64,000 nt of DNA from an uncultured Ignavibacteria bacterium (GTDB taxonomy: Bacteria > Bacteroidota > Ignavibacteria > SZUA-365): contig CAJXVM010000003.1 in assembly GCA_913061095.1 (NCBI GenBank), positions 1-64,000 on the forward strand, written 5' to 3'. A model generated the notes under the pieces. The model worked only from the letters and a program-made list of their open reading frames with translations, had not been told where the DNA came from and did no database searches. The translations under genes were made by a program, and so were the position numbers. Shown in pieces: positions 48,644 through 64,000 of this stretch (the stretch's first letter is position 1; every line of letters begins with the position of its first letter).

Positions 48644-50059
48644 TCAGGAGGCCACGGCCGCTCTGGCGTGCTTCACCGGTGCCGTGTTCCCGGCCGTGAG
48701 AACCCGCTCGAGCGCATGCTGACGCTGGAAAAGGGACAGTTTGAAATAGATCCCGCTCATCACGGCCACACGCGCGACTGCGTCAAGAAGGGAATCACCC
48801 CGGCGCTGGATGCGCAGGATGCGGTACCACCGTCGGAAAATGACTCCCCAGGAATAAAATCTGCGGTTGACATCCCGGTATGCCGCGAGGATCTCCTGCC
48901 GGCTCAGCTTCGGATGCCTGAACACGAGATGATCACCCTCGTAATGGGAAAGGTCATGGTCGATGATGCGTCCCTCGGCGAGGATGTGCCGGTAGAGCGG
49001 TGTGCCGTGGATCGGGATGGCGATGGAGGACAGAATGACAGCCGGATTCACCTCGTCGAGCCGCGCGGGCAGGCTGCGGTAATATGCCGCGTCATCTTCG
49101 TCGAGTGCGAACATGACACCCGTGAAGGTAAGAATGCCGACGCTGTGCAGACGCGCGAACAGCTCGCGGTATTCCTCCACCCTGTTCTGCCGCTTGCGCA
49201 CGCTGACGAGGCTGCGCTCGCTGAGTGACTCCATTCCGAGGAAGGCCATGCGGCAGCGGGCCTTCTGCAGGAGATCGACGAACTCCCCGTCACGGAGGCA
49301 CTCGATACTGCACTGGATGCCCAGTCCCCAGAGCTTCAGCCCCGCGATTTCCCTGAGCAGGCGTTTGGCGTACTCCATGTCTCCGCCGAGATTGTTGTCG
49401 AGCAGCATGGCGAATTTCCGTTTGCGAAGCGGAAGGTTTTCCGTGTTCCGAAGGTCGCGCATGACATCCTCAATCGGACGCATGCGGTAGCGCACCGGAG
49501 CAATATTGAGCTCGCAGTAGGTGCAGGCATGCGGACAACCCCGTGTCGCCTCGGTGACGACCGGCGTGCTGAATACCTTTTCGGCGAGATCATACCGCGG
49601 AGGAGGAATATCGTCCAGCGCTGCATCAGGATCAGCAACGTAGCGGGGTTTCAGTCTGCCATTGACCATGTCTTCGACCATGCGCGGCCAGATCGCCTGC
49701 GCCTCACCGACGCAGATGCTGTCGAAATGCCGCTGCACCTGGTCGGGAAACGTGGAAGGGTATTTTCCTCCCGCGACAACCAGACGCCCCCGTGAGCGGA
49801 ACCGCGCCGCGACCTCAAACGCGTGCGGCGCACAGTAGTCCATGAAGCTCAGCGCGATAAAATCCGCATCGGTGCCGTAGTCTATCGGACGCACCATCTC
49901 GTGCAGTACTTCCACCTCGACGATGTCGGGTGTCATGCCCGCAAGCAGAAGTCCGGGCAGCGGCGGAGCTGGATTCCGCGCATAGTACGGTGGTTCATCG
50001 ATCAGGTTCTGGAAGAGCACGATGATCAGCAGTTTTGGCTTCCGCCGGAAGGGTTTCAT
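48644..50059 (-). CDS. B12-binding-type radical SAM protein
   Basis: 471 aa from the ATG at 50059, which has GGAG 6 nt upstream; a GTG 12 nt earlier is the alternative. N-terminal cobalamin-binding-like domain (about 1-125, with VGEAQAIWP at its end), then radical SAM: RGCPHACTYCELN with Cys175, Cys179, Cys182 in this numbering, GGDMEYAKRLLREI, and LGMESLSERSLVSVRKRQN. The DxHxxG cobalamin motif is not clear, so B12 binding is not certain. C-terminal part resembles DUF4070-type tails of hopanoid/lipid-modifying relatives. It is divergent from the UbiA-like operon and shares operator-like TGACA arrays with it, so the two probably act in one pathway. Substrate unknown. Confidence 0.85.
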   Translation of the reverse strand: MKPFRRKPKLLIIVLFQNLIDEPPYYARNPAPPLPGLLLAGMTPDIVEVEVLHEMVRPIDYGTDADFIALSFMDYCAPHAFEVAARFRSRGRLVVAGGKYPSTFPDQVQRHFDSICVGEAQAIWPRMVEDMVNGRLKPRYVADPDAALDDIPPPRYDLAEKVFSTPVVTEATRGCPHACTYCELNIAPVRYRMRPIEDVMRDLRNTENLPLRKRKFAMLLDNNLGGDMEYAKRLLREIAGLKLWGLGIQCSIECLRDGEFVDLLQKARCRMAFLGMESLSERSLVSVRKRQNRVEEYRELFARLHSVGILTFTGVMFALDEDDAAYYRSLPARLDEVNPAVILSSIAIPIHGTPLYRHILAEGRIIDHDLSHYEGDHLVFRHPKLSRQEILAAYRDVNRRFYSWGVIFRRWYRILRIQRRGDSLLDAVARVAVMSGIYFKLSLFQRQHALERVLTAGNTAPVKHARAAVAS

Positions 50060-50115
50060 GACGGTCTCCACGTATCGGTTCTCGAAGGCAATCTCGCGAT
50101 GCGGATGGCGAAAAC

Positions 50116-50142
50116 TGTCAGTGATTTGTCACAATTCTGTCA
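50116..50142 (-). promoter_or_regulatory. TGACA operator array A (three boxes at 11-bp steps)
   Basis: On the minus strand, TGACA occurs at 50142-50138, 50131-50127 and 50120-50116, exactly 11 bp apart. The last box ends 56 nt before the radical SAM ATG. A further TGACA on the plus strand (50145-50149) makes a short palindrome with the first box. Confidence 0.6.
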
Positions 50143-50252
50143 AATGACAGATGCGGGAGCCGACTCCAAGACCTTCCAATCGCAAGTCACCGAATGCGGA
50201 GCATGCGCGCGACCATGCGCGCTTCCGCACGACCTGGGACCGAAGCGTGACA

Positions 50253-50320
50253 CGACAGTGCGCGGCGGGGGACGCGACAGTGCGCGGCGGGGGGACGCGA
50301 CAGTGCGCGGCGGGGGGACG
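50253..50320 (+). repeat. 22/23-bp tandem repeat, three copies
   Basis: Unit CGACAGTGCGCGGCGGGGG(G)ACG at 50253-50274, 50275-50297 and 50298-50320; the first lacks one G. Copies 2 and 3 are identical. No spacers. Function unknown. Confidence 0.8.
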
Positions 50321-50368
50321 ATACGTGACGGATTTCGCGAACGAAGGGAAAAAGGGATGAAACCTGAT

Positions 50369-50394
50369 CCGGCCGGCTTCGAAAAGCCGGCCGG
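50369..50394. repeat. Perfect 11-bp G+C-rich hairpin
   Basis: CCGGCCGGCTT, loop CGAA, AAGCCGGCCGG. Very stable; followed by TTCCGTTT on the plus strand. No gene ends nearby, so it could end a short untranslated RNA or be a structural element of the divergent region. Confidence 0.65.
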
Positions 50395-50671
50395 TTCCGT
50401 TTACTCCAGGAAAAAATACGGATCAGGAAATGGAAACGCGGATACCCTCTTGATCCACGGACGGTCCGCGGTACTGCGGGATTTGAACCGGCAGGGAATG
50501 CAAGACACCACAATTCACCATTATTCCGGACGATGAAATCCCGCACTCCATTCGAGATAAAAGTAGCGATTTCTGATAATACAACAAAGGAAAATCGAAC
50601 TCCCCGGGGACGACGGTTTCCGATAACATCCGTTTTGAGGCAACCGGCAGCGTTGGACTGCATGCAACCTT

Positions 50672-50698
50672 TAACGAATCCGTGACAGATCCGTGACA
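50672..50698 (+). promoter_or_regulatory. TGACA operator array B upstream of the UbiA-like operon
   Basis: TGACA at 50683-50687 and 50694-50698 (each within ATCCGTGACA) and a degenerate TAACG at 50672-50676, all 11 bp apart. The last box ends 56 nt before the ATG at 50755. A TATTTG box at 50720-50725 lies 21 bp downstream, so the array probably overlaps the -33 region. Confidence 0.55.
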
Positions 50699-50754
50699 AC
50701 CTGCGGAGGGGATTTGCGGTATTTGTCCTCAGAACATCACCTGAAGGCAGCGTC

Positions 50755-51729
50755 ATGCATACCCGGCAGATCTCATATCCCTGCAGCATCCAGAGTGGCA
50801 CGTTTCTGCGTGCCTACCTGACGACAATGCGTCCCTATCTGCTGTTCGTCTCCGGGATCACCGTCATCGCCGGGCTCGCCACCGGGGATGCCGCACCCGG
50901 TATCGTCGCGATCACCGCCGCCGCAGGATTTCTTTCCTACGGATTCGGTCAGGCGCTGACGGACTGTTTCCAGACCGACACGGACGCGCTCTCCTCTCCA
51001 TACCGTCCGCTTGTGCGCGGCATCGTCACAACGCGGCAGGTCGCCGCCGTCAGCCTTGCGGGACTCACTGCGGTCGGTGTCGCTTTCGCGATCGCGAATC
51101 CCCACAACCTGTGGCTGGCTGCTGTCGGGGCCCTGGGACTCGCGACCTATACACCATTCAAGCGTCGCTGGGCAACGGGTCCGTTTTACAATGCGTGGAT
51201 CGTCGCCCTGCTCTGCTATATCGGGATCAGCGCGGCGGCCGGAGGCAGCAGGCTTCCCTCGCTCGATCGGATCGACATCCTGCTTCTCGCCGCTGCCTTC
51301 TTCGGATATGCGAACTTCGTGCTGGCGGGGTACTTCAAGGATATCTCCGCAGACCGGGCGACGGGATACAACACCTTCCCCGTCCGCTTCGGCTGGACGG
51401 CCGGCGCCATCGGCAGCGATATCTTCGCCGTGCTTTCCCTCGTGGCCGTCGGCACGCTGCTCCTCGATACGCCCGGCACATCATCCGCGGCGGTCGCCTT
51501 CTTCTACGTACCCGCGTGCATCACGAGTATCACTGCGCAGCTTCGGCTTCATCGCCTGCGGGACGAGCGGCAGGCGCATCGCAGCATCAGTCTCGTCGTG
51601 CACAGCTACATCCTGCAGCTGTCCGCCGCCGCAGCCGCGCTGCAGCCGGAGTGGCTGTGGCCGCTTGTGATGTACTTCCTGCTGTACCTGGCGGTGCTCT
51701 CCCGCAGACCGATGAAAGCACAGGTCTGA
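50755..51729 (+). CDS. UbiA-family prenyltransferase-like membrane protein
   Basis: 324 aa with about eight membrane helices. The first Asp-rich motif is present in divergent form (TDCFQTDTDALSSPYRPL, near 68-85) and the second as YFKDISADRATGYNTFPVRFG near 197, both with the Asp residues needed for Mg-diphosphate. UbiA enzymes transfer prenyl chains to quinone precursors, chlorophyllide, glycerol phosphates and other acceptors; this one fits none of the named subfamilies that I recognise. First gene of a four-gene operon, each later junction overlapping or within 10 nt. Regulated by array B if that interpretation holds. Confidence 0.83.
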   Translation: MHTRQISYPCSIQSGTFLRAYLTTMRPYLLFVSGITVIAGLATGDAAPGIVAITAAAGFLSYGFGQALTDCFQTDTDALSSPYRPLVRGIVTTRQVAAVSLAGLTAVGVAFAIANPHNLWLAAVGALGLATYTPFKRRWATGPFYNAWIVALLCYIGISAAAGGSRLPSLDRIDILLLAAAFFGYANFVLAGYFKDISADRATGYNTFPVRFGWTAGAIGSDIFAVLSLVAVGTLLLDTPGTSSAAVAFFYVPACITSITAQLRLHRLRDERQAHRSISLVVHSYILQLSAAAAALQPEWLWPLVMYFLLYLAVLSRRPMKAQV

Positions 51730-51739
51730 AGAGGCAGTC

Positions 51740-52663
51740 ATGCTGATCATCCTCAACCATAGCGCCCACGCCGGAACGGCTCTCGCACGCTGGAAGCGTA
51801 TTGAAGCCGCGATCTACAGCCGCTTCGGAGACTGCATCCGGGTTACCGAACTCGGGACAGGCACGGAAGCGCTGCTCAGGGAGTTCGTGGAACAGGGTGA
51901 GCGCCGCATCGTCGCCGCCGGCGGAGACGGCACTGTCAACGCCGTCCTGCAGATGGTCATGCATCTGTCCGCGTCACAGCGTGAGCAGATCACACTCGGT
52001 GCGATCGGACTGGGATCCAGCAATGACATGCACAAACCGCATCCGGCGCAATCGATGATCGGCGATGTGCCGGTCAAGCTGAATTTTGACCGGTCCGGAC
52101 TCCGGGATATCGGTGTGATCCGGTATCGTGACGGCGACTGCTCCCGCACACGATACTGGATATTGAACGCCAGTGTCGGAGTGACGGCCGATGCGAACGA
52201 CTTTTTCAACCGTGGCGACCTGCTGCTGCGATTCCTGAAACGGCACGCCACGGCGCTCGCGATTCTGTACGCTGCGCTGCACAGCATCCTGCTCACCGGT
52301 CGCCGCAGCATGCTGCTGGAGCGTGACGCGAACGCGGCAACAATGGTCGCGGTCAACAACCTCGCCATGCTGAAATCTCCGCATGTCTCCGGCAGTCTGC
52401 GGTATGACGTTTCACCTGAGGCGGACAGCGGGAATTTTCAGGTGCACTGCTTCAGCGGCGCGATGCGACTGCAGGTGTTTGCACTGCTGCTCGCGCTCAT
52501 GCGGGGAACCCCCAGCACACTCCGGCACGCCGAAGGCTGGGAGGGGAACCTGCTGCGCATCCGTTCAGCGTATCACTTCAATATCGAATGCGATGGAGAA
52601 ATCATCCTGACCGACGAGGCAGTCATCACCATTCATCCACAGCGCATCAGGGTGGCGTCATGA
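51740..52663 (+). CDS. Diacylglycerol kinase-like lipid kinase
   Basis: 307 aa. DAGK catalytic domain with VAAGGDGTVNAVL near 58-70 and the second motif GLGSSNDMHKP (usually G-T-G/A-ND) near 90-100, then the beta-sandwich domain ending FNIECDGEIIL. Family members phosphorylate diacylglycerol, sphingoid bases or related lipid alcohols. The altered second motif and the operon make a special substrate likely. No membrane helix. 10 nt after the UbiA-like gene, and its stop overlaps the AIRS-like start as ATGA. Confidence 0.83.
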   Translation: MLIILNHSAHAGTALARWKRIEAAIYSRFGDCIRVTELGTGTEALLREFVEQGERRIVAAGGDGTVNAVLQMVMHLSASQREQITLGAIGLGSSNDMHKPHPAQSMIGDVPVKLNFDRSGLRDIGVIRYRDGDCSRTRYWILNASVGVTADANDFFNRGDLLLRFLKRHATALAILYAALHSILLTGRRSMLLERDANAATMVAVNNLAMLKSPHVSGSLRYDVSPEADSGNFQVHCFSGAMRLQVFALLLALMRGTPSTLRHAEGWEGNLLRIRSAYHFNIECDGEIILTDEAVITIHPQRIRVAS

Positions 52664-53691
52664 AAACCCCCGTCACGGAATACGATGTGATCCGCCGTCT
52701 TGCCGCTGGCTTTCCCCGTCCCGCTGCACAGCGAAACCGCCTCGGTGAAAGCGACGCGGAACTGATCACGCTGCCGGACGGCAGCCTGCTCGCTGTGACG
52801 ACGGACAGTATTTCAGAGGAGATTACCACCGGACTGTACGATCCCTTCCTGGCGGGATGGATGTCGGTCATGGCGAACTGCAGCGACCTCGCCGCCGTCG
52901 GAGCGCGTCCGCTTGCCCTGCTTGTCGCGGAAACATTCGACCGCGGCTGGAGCGAAGATCAGAAGGCTGCGCTGCAGCGTGGCATCGCCGCGGCGGCGCA
53001 TCAGTGCGGCATCGGCATCGCCGGCGGGGATGTGAATTTCAGCGACCGGACAGCCATCACAGGCACGGCGCTCGGCATCTGCGGCAGTGAAGGCACGCTC
53101 ACAAGGCACGGAGCGAAGCCCGGTCATACGCTGTACGTATCCGATACCTGCGGACTTGGCAGTGCATTTGCCGCCGCCATGCTGCTCGACAGCGGGGATG
53201 TCGGCTTCCGACCACGGGCCGCGCTCCGTGAAGGGCAGCTCCTGGCCGGAAGGGCCTCTGCCTGCATGGACAGCAGCGACGGCCTCTTTCCCACGCTCGA
53301 TGAACTGATGCGCGTCAACGACTGCGGTTTCCTGCTCGACCGCGACCCCCGCGAATACATGCATCCCATGGCAATCGCAGCAGCGGACGCGCTGCAGCTG
53401 CCCGCCTGGGCCATGCTCTGTGGTCCCCACGGGGATTTCAACCTCGTCTTCACGATTCCCCCCGAAGGCATCGAAGCATTCGAGCACTGCGCTGCGGCAT
53501 CGGGGTGGTCAGCACAGCGTATCGGCCGCGTCATCCGACCACGTAGGCTGGAATGCTCCTGGGATGATGCCCCGTTTTCCTGCGCCATCGATGCGTTTCG
53601 CAGCACGGTCCTTGCCGCCACGGACGCGGGCGATATCCTCTCCTCTCTTCACCGATTCTGCCACAGCCAGATGAAAGGAGTACCGTCATGA
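52660..53691 (+). CDS. AIR synthase-fold ATP-dependent kinase-like protein (ThiL/SelD relative)
   Basis: 343 aa from the ATG at 52660 that overlaps the kinase stop. N-terminal AIRS domain: SDAELITLPDGSLLAVTTDSI, MANCSDLAAVGARPLALL and GIAGGDVNFSDRTAITGTALG; C-terminal AIRS_C domain with KPGHTLYVSDTCGLGSAFAAAMLL and CMDSSDGLFPTLDELM. It resembles ThiL (thiamine-monophosphate kinase), but the DDA motif of ThiL is absent, and no thiamine gene is near. More likely it phosphorylates or activates another substrate within this operon. Identity of the reaction is unknown. Confidence 0.78.
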   Translation: MKTPVTEYDVIRRLAAGFPRPAAQRNRLGESDAELITLPDGSLLAVTTDSISEEITTGLYDPFLAGWMSVMANCSDLAAVGARPLALLVAETFDRGWSEDQKAALQRGIAAAAHQCGIGIAGGDVNFSDRTAITGTALGICGSEGTLTRHGAKPGHTLYVSDTCGLGSAFAAAMLLDSGDVGFRPRAALREGQLLAGRASACMDSSDGLFPTLDELMRVNDCGFLLDRDPREYMHPMAIAAADALQLPAWAMLCGPHGDFNLVFTIPPEGIEAFEHCAAASGWSAQRIGRVIRPRRLECSWDDAPFSCAIDAFRSTVLAATDAGDILSSLHRFCHSQMKGVPS

Positions 53692-54980
53692 ATACGCAAC
53701 ACACTGAGCGCGTCGGCGAAAACGCCAATATTCGAGACATGCTCCTGATGGGACGGCGCATGAAGCTTCGGGAGCGCATGCTCATGTATGGACGCTTCAT
53801 GGAGAAGCTGCACAGCAGCGGAACAAACCTTCTGCGTCGCGAAATCCAATCCGCAGCCGATCGTGTCGTCCTTGTGAAAGACCCCGGCAGCGACAGTCTG
53901 CGCAGCATGGTCATGTTCGGATCCAACAACTATCTCGGGCTCGCGGATCATCCGCATGTGCTCGATGCCGTGCGAAATGCGATGATCACATACGGAGCGG
54001 GCATCGGCGGTCCGCCCCTGCTGAACGGCTACACCGCTCTGCATCGCGAACTCGAAGAGCGCCTCGCCGCATTAAAGGGTACCGGGGATGCCCTGCTGTT
54101 TTCGAGCGGCTACGGGGCGAACGTCGGCATTGCCACGGGTCTGTTCCAGAAACAGGATGTCGTGCTGTATGACGCATGCAGTCACGCGTCCTTTGTCGAT
54201 GGGATGGTCATGTCGGGTGTGCAGCGAAAGGCATTCAGACATAACGATATGCAGGATCTCGAACGGCAGCTCCAAGCCGAGGCCGGCGCTCCCGGCGATG
54301 TATACGTCGCGGTGGAAGGCGTGTATTCCATGGATGGAGACGCGGCACCGCTGGCGCGCATCGTCGACCTCTGCCGGCAGCACGGAGCGCTGCTCATTCT
54401 CGACGACGCACACGGCACCGGCGTGATGGGAGAATCGGGAAGCGGCACGGCCGAGGCCTGCGGCGTCCATGGAGAAATCGATCTGACCATGGGCACGTTC
54501 AGCAAGGCTTTCGGCATGGCAGGCGGATTTCTCGCGGCTTCCGCCGACCTGATCGACTTCATGCGCGTCTTCGCACGCTCGTACATGTTCTCCGCTTCCT
54601 TGCCGCCGGTGGTCGTCGCCGCCGTGCTCGCCGGACTCGATGTCATCGAGAAGGAACCTGAACGGCGTGCGCAGCTGTGGGACAACATCGCCTACGCGGT
54701 CGCCGGCTTCGATGCGATCGGCATCCCGGCAGGCACTGATTCTGCCATTATCGCACTGCGTGTTCCCGAAGAGATGGACATTCGCCGCGCCGCAGCGGCG
54801 TATCATGAGCACGGTATTTTCGTAAACTCCATCGAATATCCCGCCGTGCCGCTGCGCGAACAGCGATTCCGCATCAGCATCATGGCGACCCACACCCGTG
54901 ATGACATCGACAGACTCGTTGAGAGCACGGCAAAGGTATGGTCGCTGTTCGGTGCACTGCCGATCGGCGCGGCAGCGTGA
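53688..54980 (+). CDS. Alpha-oxoamine synthase-like PLP enzyme with atypical substrate loop
   Basis: 430 aa, ATG overlapping the previous stop (ATGA). PLP fold type I of the BioF/SPT/KBL family: [25 protein letters not shown] with the PLP-stacking His, DDAHGTGVMGESG, and TMGTFSKA with Schiff-base Lys273. The usual loop G-x-G-x-x-G-S-R, with Arg, is here GAGIGGPPLLNG (near 104-115), so the acyl-thioester or amino-acid specificity probably differs from SPT and BioF. It carries an N-terminal extension of about 60 residues (MLLMGRRMKLRERMLMYG). The last gene of the UbiA-like operon. A second, distinct family member is the spt gene at 32107. Confidence 0.83.
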   Translation: MNTQHTERVGENANIRDMLLMGRRMKLRERMLMYGRFMEKLHSSGTNLLRREIQSAADRVVLVKDPGSDSLRSMVMFGSNNYLGLADHPHVLDAVRNAMITYGAGIGGPPLLNGYTALHRELEERLAALKGTGDALLFSSGYGANVGIATGLFQKQDVVLYDACSHASFVDGMVMSGVQRKAFRHNDMQDLERQLQAEAGAPGDVYVAVEGVYSMDGDAAPLARIVDLCRQHGALLILDDAHGTGVMGESGSGTAEACGVHGEIDLTMGTFSKAFGMAGGFLAASADLIDFMRVFARSYMFSASLPPVVVAAVLAGLDVIEKEPERRAQLWDNIAYAVAGFDAIGIPAGTDSAIIALRVPEEMDIRRAAAAYHEHGIFVNSIEYPAVPLREQRFRISIMATHTRDDIDRLVESTAKVWSLFGALPIGAAA

Positions 54981-55143
54981 ACGCGCTTTTTTTCACGAAT
55001 GTCTCTCTCTATATTGCAGAGCGACGGATACCGCCGCAGGGTTCAGCCAACCGGAGGAGCACAACCATCCTTACGCGCACATCCCCACCCGTAAATAGAA
55101 TCTTTCATTCGACCATTCTCATTCGAGAAACAAGGAGTCAAGC

Positions 55144-56475
55144 ATGAAACAGGTCCTCGTGCTGGGCGCGGGTCTCGTCGCCCGTCCCCTGGTACGGTAT
55201 CTTCTCGAAGAACCGGAATTCAAGGTCACCGTTGCCTCGCGTACGGTGAGCAAAGCGGAAGCCCTGATTGACCATCACCCCCGCGGGCACGCCATGGCAC
55301 TGAATGTCAGCGACGAAGCGGCCGTGCGAAACGTGATGGCAGATGCGGATATCGTCATCAGCCTGCTTCCGTGGATTCATCATCTCACCATCGCGAAGCT
55401 CTGCGTTGAGCTCGGCAGGAATCTGGTGACCACATCCTACGTCAAGCCCGAGATGCAGGAACTGGATGCAGCCGCAAAGGAAAAAGGGCTGCTCTTCCTC
55501 AATGAAATCGGCGTGGATCCCGGCATTGATCACATGGCCGCCATGCAGGTGATCAACCGTGTGAAATCGAAAGGTGGCACCATCACCAGTTTCTATTCGT
55601 ACTGCGGCGGACTCCCGGCACCCGCAGACAACACAAATCCGTTCGGATACAAGTTCTCGTGGAGTCCGGTCGGTGTCATGCTCGCGGCGAAGAACACCGG
55701 GCGCTACCTGCGGGAGGGTGGCATCGTCGAGGTTCCGTCAGAGCAGCTCTTCGAACATTACTGGCTGGTGGACGTTCCCGGCGCGGGCACGTTCGAGGCA
55801 TACGTAAACCGTGATGCGCTGCCGTACGTAGACATGTACGGCATCGGGGACGCGCGGAGCATGTACCGCGGGACGCTGCGCAACGTCGGACACTGCGAGT
55901 CCTGGAATTATTTCAAGAAGCTCGGTCTGCTCGACCAGGAACGCAGTTTTGATTTCCGCACGACTTCTCCGCGCGAAGTCATCGCGGCACTGGTCGACAG
56001 CAACGGCGAGGATTTGATCGCGGATATCGCGCGCTGGCTCGAGGTGCCGACGCATTCCATCACCATCAAGAAAATGCAGTGGCTCGGACTTCTCGACGAA
56101 GCGCCACTTCCTCTCGAGGAGGCCAGTGTCTTCGACATGTTCGCGCATGTGCTGCAGGAGCGGCTGGTATACGAGGAGGGCGAGGTCGACCTGCTCGTTC
56201 AGCATCACGAGTTCGTCGCCGAATACGACGGCGGACGAACCGAGAAGATCACGGCGACGATGGTGGATACAGGCATTCCGGACGGTGACAGCTCCATGGC
56301 GCGGACGGTCAGCCTTCCCGCCGCCATCGCAACGAAAATGATTCTTCAGGGACGCATTGATCTGACCGGTGTACACATACCCGTGCTTCCTGAAATCTAC
56401 GAACCCGTTCTCGCGGAACTGGAGGCCATGGGCATCACCCTCGTGGAACGCCGTTCCGCGCAATCGCAGGGTTGA
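55144..56475 (+). CDS. Saccharopine dehydrogenase (L-glutamate-forming half of LKR/SDH)
   Basis: 443 aa, with AAGGAG before the ATG. N-terminal Rossmann domain (VLVLGAGLVARPLVRYLL), middle domain with NEIGVDPGIDHMAAMQVI and SYCGGLPAPADNTNPFGYKFSWSP, the hallmark of the SDH half of the plant/animal bifunctional enzyme and of yeast Lys9. It would oxidise saccharopine to glutamate and aminoadipate semialdehyde (or the reverse). Its partner half is the convergent gene at 56586, with three palindromes in between. Lysine breakdown to aminoadipate is the likely pathway. Confidence 0.88.
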   Translation: MKQVLVLGAGLVARPLVRYLLEEPEFKVTVASRTVSKAEALIDHHPRGHAMALNVSDEAAVRNVMADADIVISLLPWIHHLTIAKLCVELGRNLVTTSYVKPEMQELDAAAKEKGLLFLNEIGVDPGIDHMAAMQVINRVKSKGGTITSFYSYCGGLPAPADNTNPFGYKFSWSPVGVMLAAKNTGRYLREGGIVEVPSEQLFEHYWLVDVPGAGTFEAYVNRDALPYVDMYGIGDARSMYRGTLRNVGHCESWNYFKKLGLLDQERSFDFRTTSPREVIAALVDSNGEDLIADIARWLEVPTHSITIKKMQWLGLLDEAPLPLEEASVFDMFAHVLQERLVYEEGEVDLLVQHHEFVAEYDGGRTEKITATMVDTGIPDGDSSMARTVSLPAAIATKMILQGRIDLTGVHIPVLPEIYEPVLAELEAMGITLVERRSAQSQG

Positions 56476-56584
56476 GATTCATCTCGCCCCAATCCAGGCC
56501 ATCCGCACATCATTCAACTGCAGGGGCGGGATTCATCTCGCCCCTGTGTTCATGACGCAGTTTTCGGGCGAGATGTATCTCGCC
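56474..56584. repeat. Three hairpins with GAGAT..ATCTC cores between convergent SDH and LKR genes
   Basis: GAGAT-TC-ATCTC (56474-56485), CAGGGGCG...CGCCCCTG enclosing ATTCATCT (56521-56546), and GGCGAGAT-GT-ATCTCGCC (56567-56584). The last is followed by GCTACG, whose CTA is the TAG stop codon of the LKR gene on the minus strand. Likely bidirectional terminator function as well as repeat origin. Confidence 0.65.
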
Positions 56585-56585
56585 G

Positions 56586-57908
56586 CTACGATGACGCAGA
56601 GAAAAAGTCTGATATGTACTCGTAATCGGGAGTGAGGCGGCCATGGTGGGCGATTATTGAGGCACGAAGCGCCGGTGACAGCGAAAGGCCTTCAAACGGA
56701 CGCGTGAGATCCGCACCGGCAAGTTCAGGCACGAACGGGAGCAGTGATTCTCCAAAAGCGGTTGAGGCCTCGCGCGGAAGTTCAGTCGGAAGTTTGTCGA
56801 CAGCGAGGATAACCGGACCGCGTCCCTCCCAGCCATCGATGACCGCACCGGTAAGCGGTTCATACACGTAGACGGGATTCAGCGCACTGGTCTCCTTGAC
56901 GGTGAGCTGCACCGAACCGTCAATGTCGCAGGTCACGTCGCCGATCACGCGCAGACGCGGCGGATCCTCTCTCGCGAACAGTCGGCGGGCGGCATCGAGC
57001 GTCACAAGTCGCGGGTATCGCGGTTCCCAGTAAATCCCGTTAACCAGTACCGTCAGGTATGGCAGGTACTGCTCGAACACGGATACATAGCGCTCCGGAT
57101 GATCATAGAATTCCTGCAGGTCGAATGCCCTGCCGGGCTCCATGGGCGCCGCCATGTCCTCCTCCCGAAACTCCACCTTGTACGCCACATGGTTCGAGAA
57201 TGCACCGCGAGAGAAAAACGCTGCGAGATCCGACGGAGCGATGGTTTCAACCGGCAGCAGATCATACAGGTGCTGCGCCCCCTTCGATACATTTCCGTAC
57301 CCGGTAAAGCCGCAGACGAACGGCACCAGTTCCGGCGGGAATCCCTCGGTTCGGATGCGCGCCCCCGCCTCACGAAACGCCGCTTCGGCGTCGGCGAGCA
57401 TGGGATACGACGTTGCATACTGCATGGCGGAGAACGGCGTCTGCATTCCCTCCCATTCCAGCCGCCGCCCCAGTGCCCAGAGAGAATCGATCATCCCGGC
57501 ATACCCGGCGAAGTTTCCGAAGAACACCTGGCGCCTGCCGTCGGCATCCTTGATCAGTTCATAATCAAACAACGTTATCCCGCGATCAAGGATGTGACGC
57601 AGCATTCCCATATTGTAGGACTGCCCCTTGATCGTGTGCGAGAAAAACATGTATGCGGCACCGTCATCCATGTACTCGGGAGCGATCTCCTTGACACCGA
57701 GCACGATATTGCAATCACGGAGATCCTCGGTCAGTTCGGCGCCGGCCGCCGCGTATTCCTCGTCGCGGAAGATGCGTTTCTCCATCGGCTGCACGAGCAC
57801 ACGGATCCCATGCTCACGGATAAGCAGCGCGACGTGATCGGGTGACAGCGGCACCCGCTGCTGCGTTGTATCCTTCGTCTCCCTTCGTATGCCAATACAG
57901 TTTCTCAT
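56586..57908 (-). CDS. Lysine-ketoglutarate reductase-like protein (N-terminal half of LKR/SDH)
   Basis: 440 aa from the ATG at 57908; a longer frame to 58112 has no family likeness upstream. The AlaDH/PNT-like N-terminal domain (IGIRRETKDTTQQRVPLSPDHVALLIREHGIRVLV) and FFSHTIKGQSYNMGMLRHILDRGITLFDYELIKD and FGNFAGYAGMIDSLWALGRRL are the marks of the LKR half of the bifunctional aminoadipate-semialdehyde synthase. It would form saccharopine from lysine and 2-oxoglutarate. Here LKR and SDH are separate, convergent genes, unlike the fused eukaryotic form. No signal peptide. Cytoplasmic. Confidence 0.85.
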   Translation of the reverse strand: MRNCIGIRRETKDTTQQRVPLSPDHVALLIREHGIRVLVQPMEKRIFRDEEYAAAGAELTEDLRDCNIVLGVKEIAPEYMDDGAAYMFFSHTIKGQSYNMGMLRHILDRGITLFDYELIKDADGRRQVFFGNFAGYAGMIDSLWALGRRLEWEGMQTPFSAMQYATSYPMLADAEAAFREAGARIRTEGFPPELVPFVCGFTGYGNVSKGAQHLYDLLPVETIAPSDLAAFFSRGAFSNHVAYKVEFREEDMAAPMEPGRAFDLQEFYDHPERYVSVFEQYLPYLTVLVNGIYWEPRYPRLVTLDAARRLFAREDPPRLRVIGDVTCDIDGSVQLTVKETSALNPVYVYEPLTGAVIDGWEGRGPVILAVDKLPTELPREASTAFGESLLPFVPELAGADLTRPFEGLSLSPALRASIIAHHGRLTPDYEYISDFFSASS

Positions 57909-58014
57909 ATCCTTCGTGCTCCTGGGTTGAAACCATGATAAAGGCCCGCGCTGTCCGCTCCCATCAACGGGCCATCTGAAAAGTATTTCTGCCGCCGGGA
58001 AAAACCAATCCCGC

Positions 58015-59004
58015 TCAACGCTTCCAGCCGACGACCTGGGCGGTGCCGGTCGGCGTATCACGCCGTTCGCAATCGGAAAGCCCCGCTTCCTCCATCCATG
58101 TGCGGACTTCATGTTCGGTGAACGTGTCGCCCGCCTCGGTGGCGACGAGCATGTTCAGCGCAAACAGAGCGCCGCGCTCAGGATGCACGCGATTTTCCTC
58201 CATGATGTAATCCTGCACGACGATCTGTCCACCCGGCCGCAGCGCGGCGGCACATCGTTTGATCAGCTGCCGGTTTTCCTCATATGAATTGCTGTGGATG
58301 ATGGCAGAGAGAAATATCACATCGTAGCCCGAACCCATATCGTCCGTGTGATAATCGCCGGCGCGCGTGTCGATACGCTCCTCCAAGCCGGCTGCCTCGA
58401 TATAGCGGCGTGTGATCGGTACGACCTCCGGGAGATCGAAAACGGTGGCGCGGAGATCCCGCTTGACACGCAGCATGGTCATCGCATAGATGCCCGATCC
58501 ACCACCGAGGTCGAGCACATGTTCGGCATCATGCAGGTCGATGAGATTGACGTCCTGCGGAGCCTGCGTGCGCGCGCGGTGATGCATGGCCGCGATGAAC
58601 GCCTCCAGCCATTCCTCGCCACGGTCGCCGATGGGCTCGCGTCCCCTGCCGGTGCCGGTGCGCACCGCCTGTGTCATACCTCCCCAGAGATCCCACAGGT
58701 GATTCGCGTGCGCGAGATTTCCGAGGTAGGCATCAGATCCGCGCACAAGGTAGCGGCCGGCGGCCTCGGTATTGAAGAATAATCCGTCACGTTTCTCCAG
58801 CAGACCGATGACGCACAGCGCGTTCATCAATCGATCGGTCGCGCGCGGATCCGTGCCGATGGCATGCGCCACCTGCAGGGAGGTTTTCTCGTCCGGGGAG
58901 AGCTGACTGAATACATCCAGCTCGACGGCGGTGAGGAGGATCCTGCTTTCACGGAAGGCATTCGCGACGGCATGTATGTCTTCGGGTTTGCTGATGCGGC
59001 TCAC
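58015..59004 (-). CDS. SAM-dependent O-methyltransferase (acetylserotonin/CrtF type)
   Basis: 329 aa. GTG start at 59004, supported by AGGAGG 8 nt upstream; the longer ATG frame to 59121 runs through the intergenic operator. N-terminal winged-helix dimerisation domain (ISKPEDIHAVANAFRESRILLTAVELDVFSQL) and a Methyltransf_2 core with VLDLGGGSGIYAM (near 172), VFDLPEVVP, RAGDYHTDDMGSGYDVIFLSAIIHSNS, and a catalytic-type His. Such enzymes methylate hydroxyl groups of pigments and aromatic metabolites. It lies beside TGACA array C, possibly in the same regulon as the radical SAM/UbiA genes. Substrate unknown. Confidence 0.83.
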   Translation of the reverse strand: MSRISKPEDIHAVANAFRESRILLTAVELDVFSQLSPDEKTSLQVAHAIGTDPRATDRLMNALCVIGLLEKRDGLFFNTEAAGRYLVRGSDAYLGNLAHANHLWDLWGGMTQAVRTGTGRGREPIGDRGEEWLEAFIAAMHHRARTQAPQDVNLIDLHDAEHVLDLGGGSGIYAMTMLRVKRDLRATVFDLPEVVPITRRYIEAAGLEERIDTRAGDYHTDDMGSGYDVIFLSAIIHSNSYEENRQLIKRCAAALRPGGQIVVQDYIMEENRVHPERGALFALNMLVATEAGDTFTEHEVRTWMEEAGLSDCERRDTPTGTAQVVGWKR

Positions 59005-59085
59005 GCATTCCTCCTGGAAATGATACGACAACCGACCGCCTCTGCGGGCGATCCCTTCGCAAAAATAGAGAACGCGCGGAAGGAA

Positions 59086-59112
59086 TGACAACACTCTGAC
59101 AAAATCATGACA
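59086..59112 (+). promoter_or_regulatory. TGACA operator array C (three boxes at 11-bp steps)
   Basis: TGACA at 59086-59090, 59097-59101 and 59108-59112 on the plus strand. A TACATTTG box (Bacteroidota -7 type TAnnTTTG) at 59133-59140 starts 20 bp after the last box, so plus-strand transcription of the 5'-nucleotidase gene (ATG 59242) would start close by. The divergent methyltransferase start lies 81 nt to the left. Confidence 0.6.
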
Positions 59113-59132
59113 CATCGACACAGCGTCACGGA

Positions 59133-59140
59133 TACATTTG
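59133..59140 (+). promoter_or_regulatory. TAnnTTTG -7 promoter box
   Basis: TACATTTG matches the Bacteroidota sigma-ABfr -7 consensus exactly. It lies 102 nt before the ATG of the nucleotidase gene and 20 bp after TGACA box 3, which would occupy the -33 region. Confidence 0.5.
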
Positions 59141-59241: not shown

Positions 59242-61218
59242 ATGAGAAACATGTTCGCCATCCTGACCGCCCTGCTGCTTTCCGTCGGCGTAATGTCGCT
59301 TCAGGCGCAGCCGCAGCAGTATCTCACCATTCTCAACCTCAACGATTCGCATTCCAACCTGCTACCCGGGATGCCGCGTGATGCATCCTATCAGGGACAG
59401 GTTGGCGGTATCGCTCGCGCCGCCACGGTCATCAACCAGTACCGCAGCGCGGAGGACCGCGTCATCGTGCTGCACGCGGGAGACGCCTGCGTCGGAGACC
59501 CGATGTACAATCTCCCCGCCGGCATCACATACCGCTGTCCCGACATGGAGCTACTCAACCTGCTGGGCATCGACGCAATGGCATGCGGAAACCACGAGTT
59601 CGATTTCGGCGCGGACATGCTCTACGCCATGCTCGGGAACGCCAATCCCACCTATCCTCTGCTTTCGGCCAATATCCAGCTGGATGCCACCTATCAATCA
59701 ATGCTCGGCCCCTACATCGATGACTACGCCGTCATTACCCGCGGGCCATTCCGCGTCGGCGTCGTCGGTGTGACGACCCCGAGCACGAATATCATGCTTA
59801 CGCCCGACGGCGGCGTCTGGTTCAAAGGCATGAACGGGCAGGAGATGGGCGAAGTCATGCAGTCCGTCGGCAACCTTATTGCCGGGCATCTGATTCCCGT
59901 TGAGCACTGCAACGTCATTGTCCTGCTCTCACACATGGGGATCGACATCGACCGCGAGTTTGCAAAAAACGTTCCGTACATCGACCTGATCGTCAGCGGC
60001 CATGATCACATCAGCATGAAACACGCCGAGGAAGTCAAGAATCAGATCACGAAAGAAAAAGTCTCCATTGTCACGACCGGTGGCTTTTACCGTGAAATGG
60101 GCGCGGTGCAGGTTCGTCTGCACAATGACAGAGTTGATGTCATGGGATATACGCCCATTGCGCTCGACGCCACCATTCCCGAGGATCCCGTGGTCGCGGG
60201 AGCCGTACAGCTGGTGCAGCAGGATATCGAGACCGCACTGGCCGAAACTCCGCTGCAGATCATGTTTACCGCACCCGTGGCGATGTGCAGTGGATTCTTT
60301 ACCGAGGAAGCGACAGGTCTGATGAGTCCCGGACCGAAGGATACCCACGTCGGCAACCTCATGGCTGACGCCTTCGAGACCATCCCCGGTGTGGATATCG
60401 GCCTCGAACCGGGGGGCTCCACCGCACAGCCGCTGCGTGAAGGACCGGTGCTCCCCGTCGACCTGTTCCGCATGATCGGCTACGGCGCCGATCCGGACGG
60501 CAAGAATCCGCTCGGCTACCCGGTCGTGTATTTCACCATGCAGGGACATGCGATCAAGGCCGGACTGGAAGCAACGCTCAAGGACATCGACGTCAACGAT
60601 GAAATGCTTCTTCAGGTATCCGCCAGCATGCAGTACTTCTATGATCCCCATGAAGCGGCCGGACAGCGCGTGAAGGGCATCCTGTACAAGGGACAGCAGA
60701 TGGATCTCAATGACACCTACACCGTGGCGACCAACTATCTCGTGCTTCGCTACCTTGACATGCTGAACATCCCGCATGGAACTGTCAACACGCTCACCGA
60801 CATGCAGACCGATCCGACAGCGATTTCGGAATTCGAACTCGTGCTCGACTATATCGTCAACGGACTCAACAGCGTCCTGACCGCCGGCAAGAAACCAGGT
60901 CGCGTGCAGGCCATCTGCTCTTCGGTCATTATCCCGAGTGCTATCAATCCATCAATGGCGAAGATTTCATCGAACAGTCCGAATCCCTTCACCGGTGAAA
61001 CGGTTGTGACATGGTCGCTGGAGGAAGCCACCCCCGTCACGCTCAAAGTGTACGACACGGTCGGACGCGAGGTCGCGACACTGCACGACGGTTACGCCAC
61101 CGAGGGAGTGCATACCGTATCGTTCAGGGCGCTGAACCTGCCGGCCGGGCTGTACTTCTGCCGCCTGCAGACCGGAGCCGGAGAGATAAAAACACTGAAA
61201 ATGCTCAAGACACGCTGA
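59242..61218 (+). CDS. 5'-nucleotidase/UDP-sugar hydrolase-type metallophosphoesterase with T9SS sorting domain
   Basis: 658 aa. AAGGAG at 59230-59235 selects the ATG at 59242, so that MRNMFAILTALLLSVGVMSLQA is a signal peptide; a longer frame to 59107 crosses the operator. Calcineurin-like phosphoesterase: LNLNDSHSN, HAGDACVGDP, ACGNHEFDFG and IVSGHDH are metal-binding blocks. A 5_nucleotid_C domain follows near residue 340-540 (NLMADAFETIPGVDIGLEPGGS). The C-terminus NSPNPFTGETVVTWSL, VYDTVGREVATLHDG, LPAGLYFCRL is a T9SS sorting domain. It should release nucleosides and phosphate outside the cell. Monocistronic with a strong terminator. Confidence 0.9.
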   Translation: MRNMFAILTALLLSVGVMSLQAQPQQYLTILNLNDSHSNLLPGMPRDASYQGQVGGIARAATVINQYRSAEDRVIVLHAGDACVGDPMYNLPAGITYRCPDMELLNLLGIDAMACGNHEFDFGADMLYAMLGNANPTYPLLSANIQLDATYQSMLGPYIDDYAVITRGPFRVGVVGVTTPSTNIMLTPDGGVWFKGMNGQEMGEVMQSVGNLIAGHLIPVEHCNVIVLLSHMGIDIDREFAKNVPYIDLIVSGHDHISMKHAEEVKNQITKEKVSIVTTGGFYREMGAVQVRLHNDRVDVMGYTPIALDATIPEDPVVAGAVQLVQQDIETALAETPLQIMFTAPVAMCSGFFTEEATGLMSPGPKDTHVGNLMADAFETIPGVDIGLEPGGSTAQPLREGPVLPVDLFRMIGYGADPDGKNPLGYPVVYFTMQGHAIKAGLEATLKDIDVNDEMLLQVSASMQYFYDPHEAAGQRVKGILYKGQQMDLNDTYTVATNYLVLRYLDMLNIPHGTVNTLTDMQTDPTAISEFELVLDYIVNGLNSVLTAGKKPGRVQAICSSVIIPSAINPSMAKISSNSPNPFTGETVVTWSLEEATPVTLKVYDTVGREVATLHDGYATEGVHTVSFRALNLPAGLYFCRLQTGAGEIKTLKMLKTR

Positions 61219-61363: not shown

Positions 61364-63874
61364 ATGAAAGGAATCCAGTCTCGGAAAACGCTGCTTATCG
61401 TATTCGACGTGGTCGTATTGCTGCTGTGCATTGCGGGCATCGAGCAAAGCCGTCACAAGGCATGGGTACATGCGAACCTCGAATCCGAATACGGCGCCCT
61501 CTCGATGGATTCCGCCTACGTCACCGGGGTCACCCCGGACGAAGAGGTATTTCAGGTAGGCGACGTACTGATCAGCATCGCAGGATACAGGATTCAGGAG
61601 TTCCTGGATATCGAACACATTCTGAATCGCTACAAAGCGGGCGATACGGTCACGATGACATTCCGACGGAACGGCCGGATTTTGACACGACCCTACGAGC
61701 TGGGAGCGTTCTACAACACCTTTTACCTGATCGTCCAGACTGCCGGCGTCCTTATATTCTTCTCGCTGGCATTGTTTGTCGTCATCCGCCGACCGCGAGG
61801 AAGGGAGGCACTGCTCTTTCATCAGCTCGCCATCACGGTCGCGGGAGTCATTGCATTTACGAACGGCTACTACATGATGGAGCCGCACGGCATCGGCCAC
61901 ATGCTGCGTGCCCTCTTTCCATCCGTGAACGTCTTCATCGGCGTGCTCATGCTCCATTTCAGCCTGGTCTTTCCCAGGCCGAAACCGGCCCCCATCCCGC
62001 TCCTCATATTCATCTATGGTGCCGGCACCGTGATCGCGGTGATCGGGGGATATGCGTCTCTGCGGGCGGTGCTTCCGATGGACCTCTCATGGGCGGCCGT
62101 GTATTACGACACCCTTCGTCTGGCGAAGCTCGGCATGGTGGCCGGCGCCTCTGCGGGGATCGCCGTGCTGATCGTGCGTTTCGTCCGTCTGAAAGATTCC
62201 ATTGCGCGAAGACAGATCGCATGGGTTGTCATCGGGGCCGGCTTCAGTGTGGTCGTCTATGCCGTGTTCTGGCTGATGACGACCTCCCCGTATGTTCGGG
62301 CGCTGCTTCCGGAGGGAAGCGAACGTCTGCTCGCGCTCATTCGTATCGATGAAAGTATCCTGATCCTCTCCCTTGTGCTGACCGGTTCATTCATGGCCTT
62401 CGGCATCATTCGGTACCGGTTCTTCGACATCGAGTATTTCTTCCGACGGGGCACGATATACGGACTGGTTTTTCTCGTACTGGTGCTGATTTTCAGCGTA
62501 ATCATCTGGGGTATTCACCGCATCAGCGGTGACAGCCCGAATATTCTTTTCTACACCGGTTCCATTCTGGCCCTGCTGATCGATTTGCTGCTCTTCCTGC
62601 CATTGCGCGATTTCATGCAGCGCATTGTCGACCGGTATTTTTTCCGGATCGAGTACGATTTCCGAACGGGATTGAAATCCCTGACCACGGAAATATCAGA
62701 CGCTGTCGATGCGGAAGAAGTGGCGCGCACGATCGTCGACGGCATCGACAGCCTGATGCACCTTTACGGCGTCATGGTGATGACCGTGCACAACAAGAAG
62801 GAACTCCGCGTCCTGGCTCGCAGCGGATTCCCGCGCTGGCGGTATCCGTCGATCAACGTGCATGAACAGCGGCTGCAGGCGCTGCCACGCCGTCCGCTGC
62901 TGCTCACCGATGTTGTCGAGGCAGGGGCGGATGTGCGCGAAATCGCGATGCCGTTCGCAAAGCGTTACGGCGTGTCACTGATCTATACGCTTCGTGCGGA
63001 AGACGGCATGGTCCTGGGTCTGCTGGTGCTCGGTGCCAAGCGCAGCGGCACGGCTTTCACCCTCGAGGATCTCGACCTCCTGCATTCCGTCAGCGCGCAG
63101 GCCGGTCTGCATCTCGAACGGATCCGCCTGCAGGAGACACTGCTGATCGAGAAGAAAGAAGCCGAAAAGCTGCGCGAACTGAGCCAGATGAAATCGTATT
63201 TCGTATCCGGGGTTTCGCATGACCTGAAAACCCCGCTCACCTCCATCAAACTCTTCGCAGAACTGCTGGAGCAGCAGATCGCGCAGGAGGACGAAACGAA
63301 CCGGAAATACGTCGGCATCATTCAGGGGGAGTGCGACCGCCTTGCCCGCATGATCAATAACATACTCGATTTCACCAAGATCGAGCGCGGGATGATGAAA
63401 TACAGTTTCGCGCCGACCGACGTCAATGAACTTGTGCAGCACGCATACGACATCATGCAGTACCAGTTCTCGCTCGGTGGGTTCTCCTGTGACCTGTCAC
63501 TCGCGGCCGACGGCAGCAGCGTCAATGCGGACAGGGATGCCCTGATCGAAGCCGTCACAAATATTCTCGCCAATGCCATGAAGTACTCCGGCAGCGGACG
63601 GCAGATTTTTCTCCGCACGAAGAGCAACAATACCGAGATCTCAATTGAAGTAGAAGATCACGGACTGGGCATCGAGGCAGATGAGATTCCGCACCTGTTC
63701 GAACCATTCTATCGCTCACAGACCGGCGACGTGCAGAAGCACGGCGGTGTGGGGCTCGGGCTCGCGCTTGTCAAGCATATCGTCGATTCGCACAAAGGCC
63801 AGATCCACGTGCGCAGTGTCCCCGGGGAGGGAAGCACATTCACCATCTCTCTGAAAAAAATGGAGGGCGCATGA
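61364..63874 (+). CDS. Membrane sensor histidine kinase with PDZ and GAF domains
   Basis: 836 aa. A first membrane helix (about 8-26) is followed by an extracytoplasmic PDZ-like domain (about 45-110, VTPDEEVFQVGDVLISIAGYRI). Eight or so further helices form a membrane block to about residue 415. Then a GAF domain (about 440-590), and the HisKA domain with SHDLKTPLTSIK at phosphoacceptor His619, and HATPase with N-box ILANAMKYS, G1 DHGLGI, and GVGLGLALVKHIV. The stop overlaps the response regulator start (ATGA), so they are a two-component pair. The PDZ on the outside suggests sensing of peptide ends or misfolded envelope proteins. Confidence 0.9.
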   Translation: MKGIQSRKTLLIVFDVVVLLLCIAGIEQSRHKAWVHANLESEYGALSMDSAYVTGVTPDEEVFQVGDVLISIAGYRIQEFLDIEHILNRYKAGDTVTMTFRRNGRILTRPYELGAFYNTFYLIVQTAGVLIFFSLALFVVIRRPRGREALLFHQLAITVAGVIAFTNGYYMMEPHGIGHMLRALFPSVNVFIGVLMLHFSLVFPRPKPAPIPLLIFIYGAGTVIAVIGGYASLRAVLPMDLSWAAVYYDTLRLAKLGMVAGASAGIAVLIVRFVRLKDSIARRQIAWVVIGAGFSVVVYAVFWLMTTSPYVRALLPEGSERLLALIRIDESILILSLVLTGSFMAFGIIRYRFFDIEYFFRRGTIYGLVFLVLVLIFSVIIWGIHRISGDSPNILFYTGSILALLIDLLLFLPLRDFMQRIVDRYFFRIEYDFRTGLKSLTTEISDAVDAEEVARTIVDGIDSLMHLYGVMVMTVHNKKELRVLARSGFPRWRYPSINVHEQRLQALPRRPLLLTDVVEAGADVREIAMPFAKRYGVSLIYTLRAEDGMVLGLLVLGAKRSGTAFTLEDLDLLHSVSAQAGLHLERIRLQETLLIEKKEAEKLRELSQMKSYFVSGVSHDLKTPLTSIKLFAELLEQQIAQEDETNRKYVGIIQGECDRLARMINNILDFTKIERGMMKYSFAPTDVNELVQHAYDIMQYQFSLGGFSCDLSLAADGSSVNADRDALIEAVTNILANAMKYSGSGRQIFLRTKSNNTEISIEVEDHGLGIEADEIPHLFEPFYRSQTGDVQKHGGVGLGLALVKHIVDSHKGQIHVRSVPGEGSTFTISLKKMEGA

Positions 63875-64000
63875 AAACCGTCTTGATTATCGAGGATGAT
63901 CCTGCCATTATCACCGGACTTGAGACCAGCTTCCAGGCCGAGCATTATGAAGTGGTAACCGCCATGGATGGAGAGGAAGGATACAAAGCCGCCTGCAAGC
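63871..64000 (+). CDS. Response regulator, cut by right window edge
   Basis: 43 residues are visible: MKTVLIIEDDPAIITGLETSFQAEHYEVVTAMDGEEG. The acidic pair EDD near residues 8-10 starts a receiver domain; the phosphoacceptor Asp lies beyond the window edge. Translationally coupled to the upstream histidine kinase by a 4-nt overlap. The output domain is unknown (an OmpR-like DNA-binding domain would be usual). Confidence 0.88.
   Translation, partial: MKTVLIIEDDPAIITGLETSFQAEHYEVVTAMDGEEGYKAACK

Follow-up and report, generated by a model that had tools for sequence, protein, structure and literature searches.

Tandem TGACA repeats at promoters of an Ignavibacteria genome, probable operators of a neighbouring OmpR/PhoB-family response regulator

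The DNA analysed here is a stretch of 64,000 nucleotides (the window; positions 1 to 64,000 of contig CAJXVM010000003.1, assembly GCA_913061095.1) from an uncultured Ignavibacteria bacterium whose genome comprises 4.6 Mb on 42 contigs. It carries three arrays of TGACA boxes, referred to as A, B and C, which stand in front of a radical SAM gene, an operon starting with a UbiA-family prenyltransferase gene and a secreted 5'-nucleotidase gene, the last being followed by genes for a histidine kinase and an OmpR/PhoB-family response regulator. Comparison with related genomes leads us to propose that the arrays are, most probably, tandem direct-repeat operators of this neighbouring response regulator.

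TGACA arrays of the window

Coordinates, spacings and strands of the three arrays were read directly from the window sequence, and the arrays are listed below with their -10-like elements and the genes behind them.

50142-50138, 50131-50127 and 50120-50116 (span 50116-50142), minus strand: array A, three TGACA boxes, TGACAGAATTGTGACAAATCACTGACA
50088-50095, minus strand: -10-like element of promoter A, GAGATTGC, 20 nt past the last box
48644-50059, minus strand: radical SAM protein of the B12-binding type and target of array A, with its first ATG at 50059 and a GTG at 50071
50672-50698, plus strand: array B, TAACG at 50672 and TGACA at 50683 and 50694, TAACGAATCCGTGACAGATCCGTGACA
50720-50725, plus strand: -10-like element of promoter B, TATTTG, 21 nt past the last box
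50755-51729, plus strand: UbiA-family prenyltransferase, first gene behind array B
51740-52663, plus strand: lipid (diacylglycerol) kinase-like protein
52660-53691, plus strand: ThiL/AIR-synthase-related protein
53688-54980, plus strand: BioF/serine-palmitoyltransferase-like pyridoxal phosphate enzyme
59086-59112, plus strand: array C, TGACA boxes at 59086, 59097 and 59108, TGACAACACTCTGACAAAATCATGACA
59133-59140, plus strand: -10-like element of promoter C, TACATTTG, 20 nt past the last box
59242-61218, plus strand: secreted 5'-nucleotidase with a type IX secretion system (T9SS) sorting domain, first gene behind array C; likely ATG at 59242
61364-63874, plus strand: histidine kinase (PDZ, GAF, HisKA and HATPase domains), behind the nucleotidase
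63871-64000, plus strand: beginning of the gene for an OmpR/PhoB-family response regulator, which we propose as binder of the arrays; the gene runs to contig position 64548 (L178:3872-4549)

The step from box to box is 11 bp in all three arrays, and arrays A and B both end 56 nt before the ATG of the gene they face (50059 and 50755). An earlier note, made from the letters of this DNA alone, had described the same three arrays, the same step and the same distance to the start codons, as well as the TATTTG and TACATTTG elements 21 and 20 nt after arrays B and C, and every one of its coordinates was found again on the sequence. It had also placed array C in front of a methyltransferase/nucleotidase pair, and here only the nucleotidase is retained: array C points at this gene alone, and we rejected it as a methyltransferase promoter because the methyltransferase gene lies on the opposite strand, where no array faces it. 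A perfect palindrome, CTGTCATTTGACAG (50137-50150), includes the outermost box of array A, so that a box of opposite orientation abuts this array.

Spacing and promoter placement of the boxes

A scan of the whole genome, which the earlier note had suggested, took exact TGACA pairs only, weaker sites being missed. The exact triple occurs three times in the 4.6 Mb, twice inside the window, and its reversed pattern does not occur; the exact TGACA-N6-TGACA pair was found 25 times, its reversed control twice. This control is too generous because TGACA pairs are common in this genome, gaps of 5 and 7 together giving 27 matches (52 minus 25, about 13 each), and the genome-wide excess of gap 6 is only about two-fold and concentrated in promoters. 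The distinct exact sites number 22, of which, by our reading, about 17 lie in front of genes.

Placement was analysed on the 84 exact pair sites of this genome and of four congeneric genomes. An element resembling TAtnTTG lies exactly 20 nt past the last box in 49 of the 84 sites (score of at least 6), while the other distances from 5 to 59 nt gave 0 to 7 sites each. A third TGACA-like box, with at least four of the five letters, stands exactly at -11 in 19 sites and elsewhere in 0 to 3. The weights of the -10 element were chosen after the sites had been inspected, but such a choice would not in itself produce a peak at a single distance. The spacing scans, together with the positions at which the -10-like element and the third box occur, led us to reject a chance origin of the arrays: the TGACA repeats are real, and their placement, not the raw counts, is the decisive evidence. 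The arrays belong to a regulon that comprises about 17 promoters of the genome. The earlier note had supposed a regulon shared by the array genes, with direct repeats at the -35 region as operators, and both this placement and the conservation of the arrays at orthologous genes, described below, bear it out.

Conservation of the arrays and the genes behind them

Several of the relatives are fragmented metagenome-assembled genomes, and operon extents were inferred from gene order. Orthologues of the nucleotidase gene are preceded by an array with three boxes in five of five congeneric genomes. The array is kept in three genomes each for the metallophosphoesterase, thioester reductase, acyltransferase and DUF3108 genes, and in two (this genome and G002) for the radical SAM gene.

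On contig C8 of the same genome, the array genes encode a thioester reductase, a lipid kinase, a UbiA-like protein, a phosphoenolpyruvate-utilising enzyme, a phosphatidylserine decarboxylase and a DUF3419 protein, DUF3419 being the family that includes BtaA. This lipid operon (L183:1313-10236), which lies behind a three-box array, also holds an unassigned protein similar to the acyltransferase of contig C23. Other array genes of this genome code for lipoproteins, a metallophosphoesterase lipoprotein and T9SS cargo, and those of the relatives include an Omp85-domain protein, an acyl carrier protein and a MacB-type permease. The targets thus comprise genes of phosphate scavenging or of phosphorus-free lipids, namely the nucleotidase, the metallophosphoesterase and the DUF3419/BtaA-family protein. 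Paralogous lipoproteins with GCxxxGYxxG after the lipobox, which gave no Pfam match, occur repeatedly behind arrays (L036, L029, L136, L143 and L161), and G002 has three tandem copies of this lipoprotein.

Linkage of the arrays to a histidine kinase and response regulator

The start of the response regulator gene (63871) overlaps the end of the histidine kinase gene (63874) by four bases. The regulator contains a receiver and a Trans_reg_C domain, and its best NCBIfam scores are with YycF, PhoB and MtrA. Two features of an OmpR/PhoB-type operator are present at this locus, namely tandem direct repeats at an 11-bp pitch and a linked regulator with these two domains. Since the gene starts 130 bp before the end of the window, the whole regulator could not be seen by the earlier reader.

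The order array, nucleotidase, kinase, regulator is kept within the family and is found in six genomes (G000, G001, G002, G006, G008 and G009), and in G003 and G004 the array and the nucleotidase gene lie at contig edges. In G012, which belongs to another family, an array stands directly before the kinase gene. Opposite this array, and facing away from the kinase, G012 carries four TGACA-like boxes in 11-bp steps (C137, L196:6387-6424), a divergent arrangement that resembles arrays A and B. In ten genomes of the order, the surroundings of the kinase and regulator genes hold 15 exact TGACA pairs with gap 6, spread over nine of the ten genomes, each other gap from 0 to 15 being seen at most once. 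The search was carried to the class level with 20 further loci of the pair, whose kinases are about 30% identical: nine of these loci hold 12 exact gap-6 pairs, against 0 to 2 for each other gap from 0 to 20, and several of the sites lie just past the regulator stop codon or beside the kinase gene. The arrays track the kinase/regulator pair across the class, which is why we assign them to this regulator in preference to a CarH-type protein.

The rigid 20-nt spacing to the -10-like element could also be that of an extended -35 element read by an alternative sigma factor. Such a reading is highly improbable, since the third box, and the four box-like repeats of G012, continue upstream at the 11-bp pitch, where a sigma factor would not read them, and since the arrays are linked to a DNA-binding response regulator.

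Several points weigh against the neighbouring regulator. Six of the 20 class-level loci are without any site at nine of ten letters, and the kinase was not found in G004, G010 and G011, of which G004 has good sites and is fragmented. The boxes are oriented opposite to the Pho box of Escherichia coli, which has the form TGACA-N6-TGACA on its opposite strand. Moreover, linkage does not amount to binding: further regulators of the OmpR family may be encoded in the genome, and the boxes could be recognised by some other protein. The operators could in that case serve a different OmpR-family regulator, or be shared by several regulators with similar half-sites, the neighbouring pair being merely one of the targets. 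The good sites present in some of the genomes in which the kinase was not found would fit this explanation, as would the 11-bp direct-repeat geometry that regulators of the family often share (PMC4415409, PMC4168254). The clustering of the sites at the neighbouring pair across the class argues against it, and we consider it unlikely.

The CarH-like gene as a candidate binder

The earlier note had likened the arrays to the operators of CarH/LitR photoreceptor repressors (MerR family, B12-dependent). On this reading, an adenosylcobalamin-bound oligomer of a CarH/LitR-like protein would cover the repeats and repress in the dark, and light would release it. CarH binds tandem 11-bp repeats at the -35 region (PMC9304148), a geometry also seen here, and a search for such a gene was successful: the genome encodes a CarH-like protein (C5:70751-71701; L031:3946-4899, equal to C5:70751-71704) with a MerR domain and both B12-binding domains. 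Its Wx9EH motif is intact, the first residue of its B12 motif is Q instead of D/E, and its NCBIfam CarH score is 140 for a cut-off of 400. The gene is orthologous in nine genomes of the order, where it usually lies beside a fasciclin-like gene. In this genome its stop codon is followed after about 100 nt by an array that precedes a DUF3108-epimerase-Rce1-PAP2 operon, and in G001 an array lies 2 kb past the gene; the same array is found before the DUF3108 gene in G001 and G003. The same repeats at the promoter of carH itself, which the earlier note had suggested looking for together with the gene, were found in none of the nine genomes.

The sequence of the boxes also argues against CarH. The repeat consensus of CarH is TnnACA (nnnnTnnACAn; PMC9304148), while in the 84 sites the position of its T is A or G in 70 and T in only 3 before box 2, T being present in 26 before box 1. 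Only three exact gap-6 pairs occur in the 117 kb around CarH-type genes, and none of the annotated array targets is a carotenoid or photolyase gene. Across the order, the genomes rich in the motif mostly have CarH, the refined motif counts being 12, 7, 9, 6, 2, 5, 3, 5 and 1 in the genomes with this gene and 1, 0, 1, 2, 0, 0 and 0 in those lacking it. This co-occurrence is not decisive in itself because the distribution of the kinase relative to the motif counts resembles that of CarH, and it is the local linkage that decides. In addition, G010 has this CarH and shows no motif excess, whereas G012, a genome 74% complete, has arrays and no orthologue of this CarH at E <= 1e-25. Taken with the presence of arrays at the kinase/regulator operon, these results make CarH an improbable binder, and the proposal of the earlier note is not supported on this point.

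G012 encodes a second type of B12-binding helix-turn-helix protein (C167, L098:1246-2103), in which Wx9EH is present and the helix-turn-helix is different. Its gene adjoins an apparent lycopene cyclase gene, and if carotenoids are under light control in these bacteria, this protein is the more promising candidate regulator. Our literature search gave no paper joining Ignavibacteria with CarH.

Comparison with PhoB/PhoR and WalR/YycF

PHO boxes consist of direct-repeat units of 11 nt, to which PhoB binds head to tail (PMC4415409). The arrays described here resemble those of the PhoB/PhoR systems of E. coli, Bacillus subtilis and Streptomyces in that at least two such units stand at the -35 region, in the type of regulator, in a kinase core closest to PnpS/PhoR, and in targets that include phosphoesterases, a nucleotidase and a BtaA-family protein. 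They differ in that the boxes are TGACA, not TGTCA, on the strand of the transcribed gene, in the distance of 20 nt between the last box and the -10 element, in the PDZ and GAF domains of the kinase and in the many lipoprotein and T9SS targets. The scores of the regulator with the PhoB model TIGR02154 (205.8, cut-off 296.2) and of the kinase with the PhoR model TIGR02966 (202.4, cut-off 334.2) lie below threshold, and the best PstB score in this genome, 147.5, is below the cut-off of 343.2. A standard Pho regulon is made less likely by the lack of a PstB over cut-off, by these low PhoB and PhoR scores and by the large number of envelope genes. Among the matches listed by a literature search on Ignavibacteria and the Pho regulon, none concerns such a site as far as titles and abstracts tell.

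The regulator has its best NCBIfam score with WalR/YycF (VicR), 219 for a cut-off of 340 and thus also below threshold, and this system likewise combines direct repeats spaced by 11 bp with envelope genes. Its sites, however, are TGTWAH-N5-TGTWAH (PMC4168254), and the architecture of its kinase is different.

Proposed mode of action and signal

We suggest that the phosphorylated regulator occupies two or three neighbouring half-sites of 11 bp in head-to-tail fashion and activates transcription from there, with the last box at about -35 and a fixed 20 nt above the TAtnTTG element. Promoters of the Bacteroidetes type usually carry TTTG at -33. In the profile of the sites no TTTG appears at this distance, and together with the rigid 20-nt spacing this suggests that the bound regulator would replace the -35 contact and thereby activate. 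Its targets would be membrane-lipid enzymes, lipoproteins, outer-membrane and secreted proteins and phosphoesterases, and also its own operon, autoregulation being suggested by the array that stands before it.

The system probably responds to a shortage of phosphate or to the condition of the envelope. Phosphate shortage is suggested by the presence of a BtaA-type enzyme and of secreted phosphoesterases among the array genes; elsewhere, btaA and btaB adjoin plcP in clusters with putative Pho boxes (PMC4796936). Phosphate itself is a possible signal, although we lean against it. Tentatively, and as a possibility rather than the expected outcome, the whole could represent a class-wide Ignavibacteria two-component system with a PDZ kinase, which would remodel the envelope from reverse-oriented Pho-like boxes placed at a fixed 20 nt from the -10 element. 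This remodelling might involve phosphoesterases, lipoproteins and T9SS cargo, plus an uncharacterised lipid that would be made by the UbiA, lipid-kinase, BioF-like and radical SAM enzymes together with the BtaA-type enzyme.

The arrays provide a defined, testable regulon and a promoter architecture for a little-studied bacterial class, and they would place dispersed genes for lipids, lipoproteins and phosphoesterases under a single sensor kinase. They also illustrate that 11-bp direct repeats at -35 do not alone indicate CarH, even in a genome that has a CarH gene, because OmpR/PhoB regulators use the same pitch.

Intergenic region between arrays A and B

The region separating arrays A and B holds three tandem copies of a GC-rich unit of 22-23 bp (GGGGGACGCGACAGTGCGCGGCG) at 50245-50312, which are followed by a GC-rich hairpin at 50361-50402.

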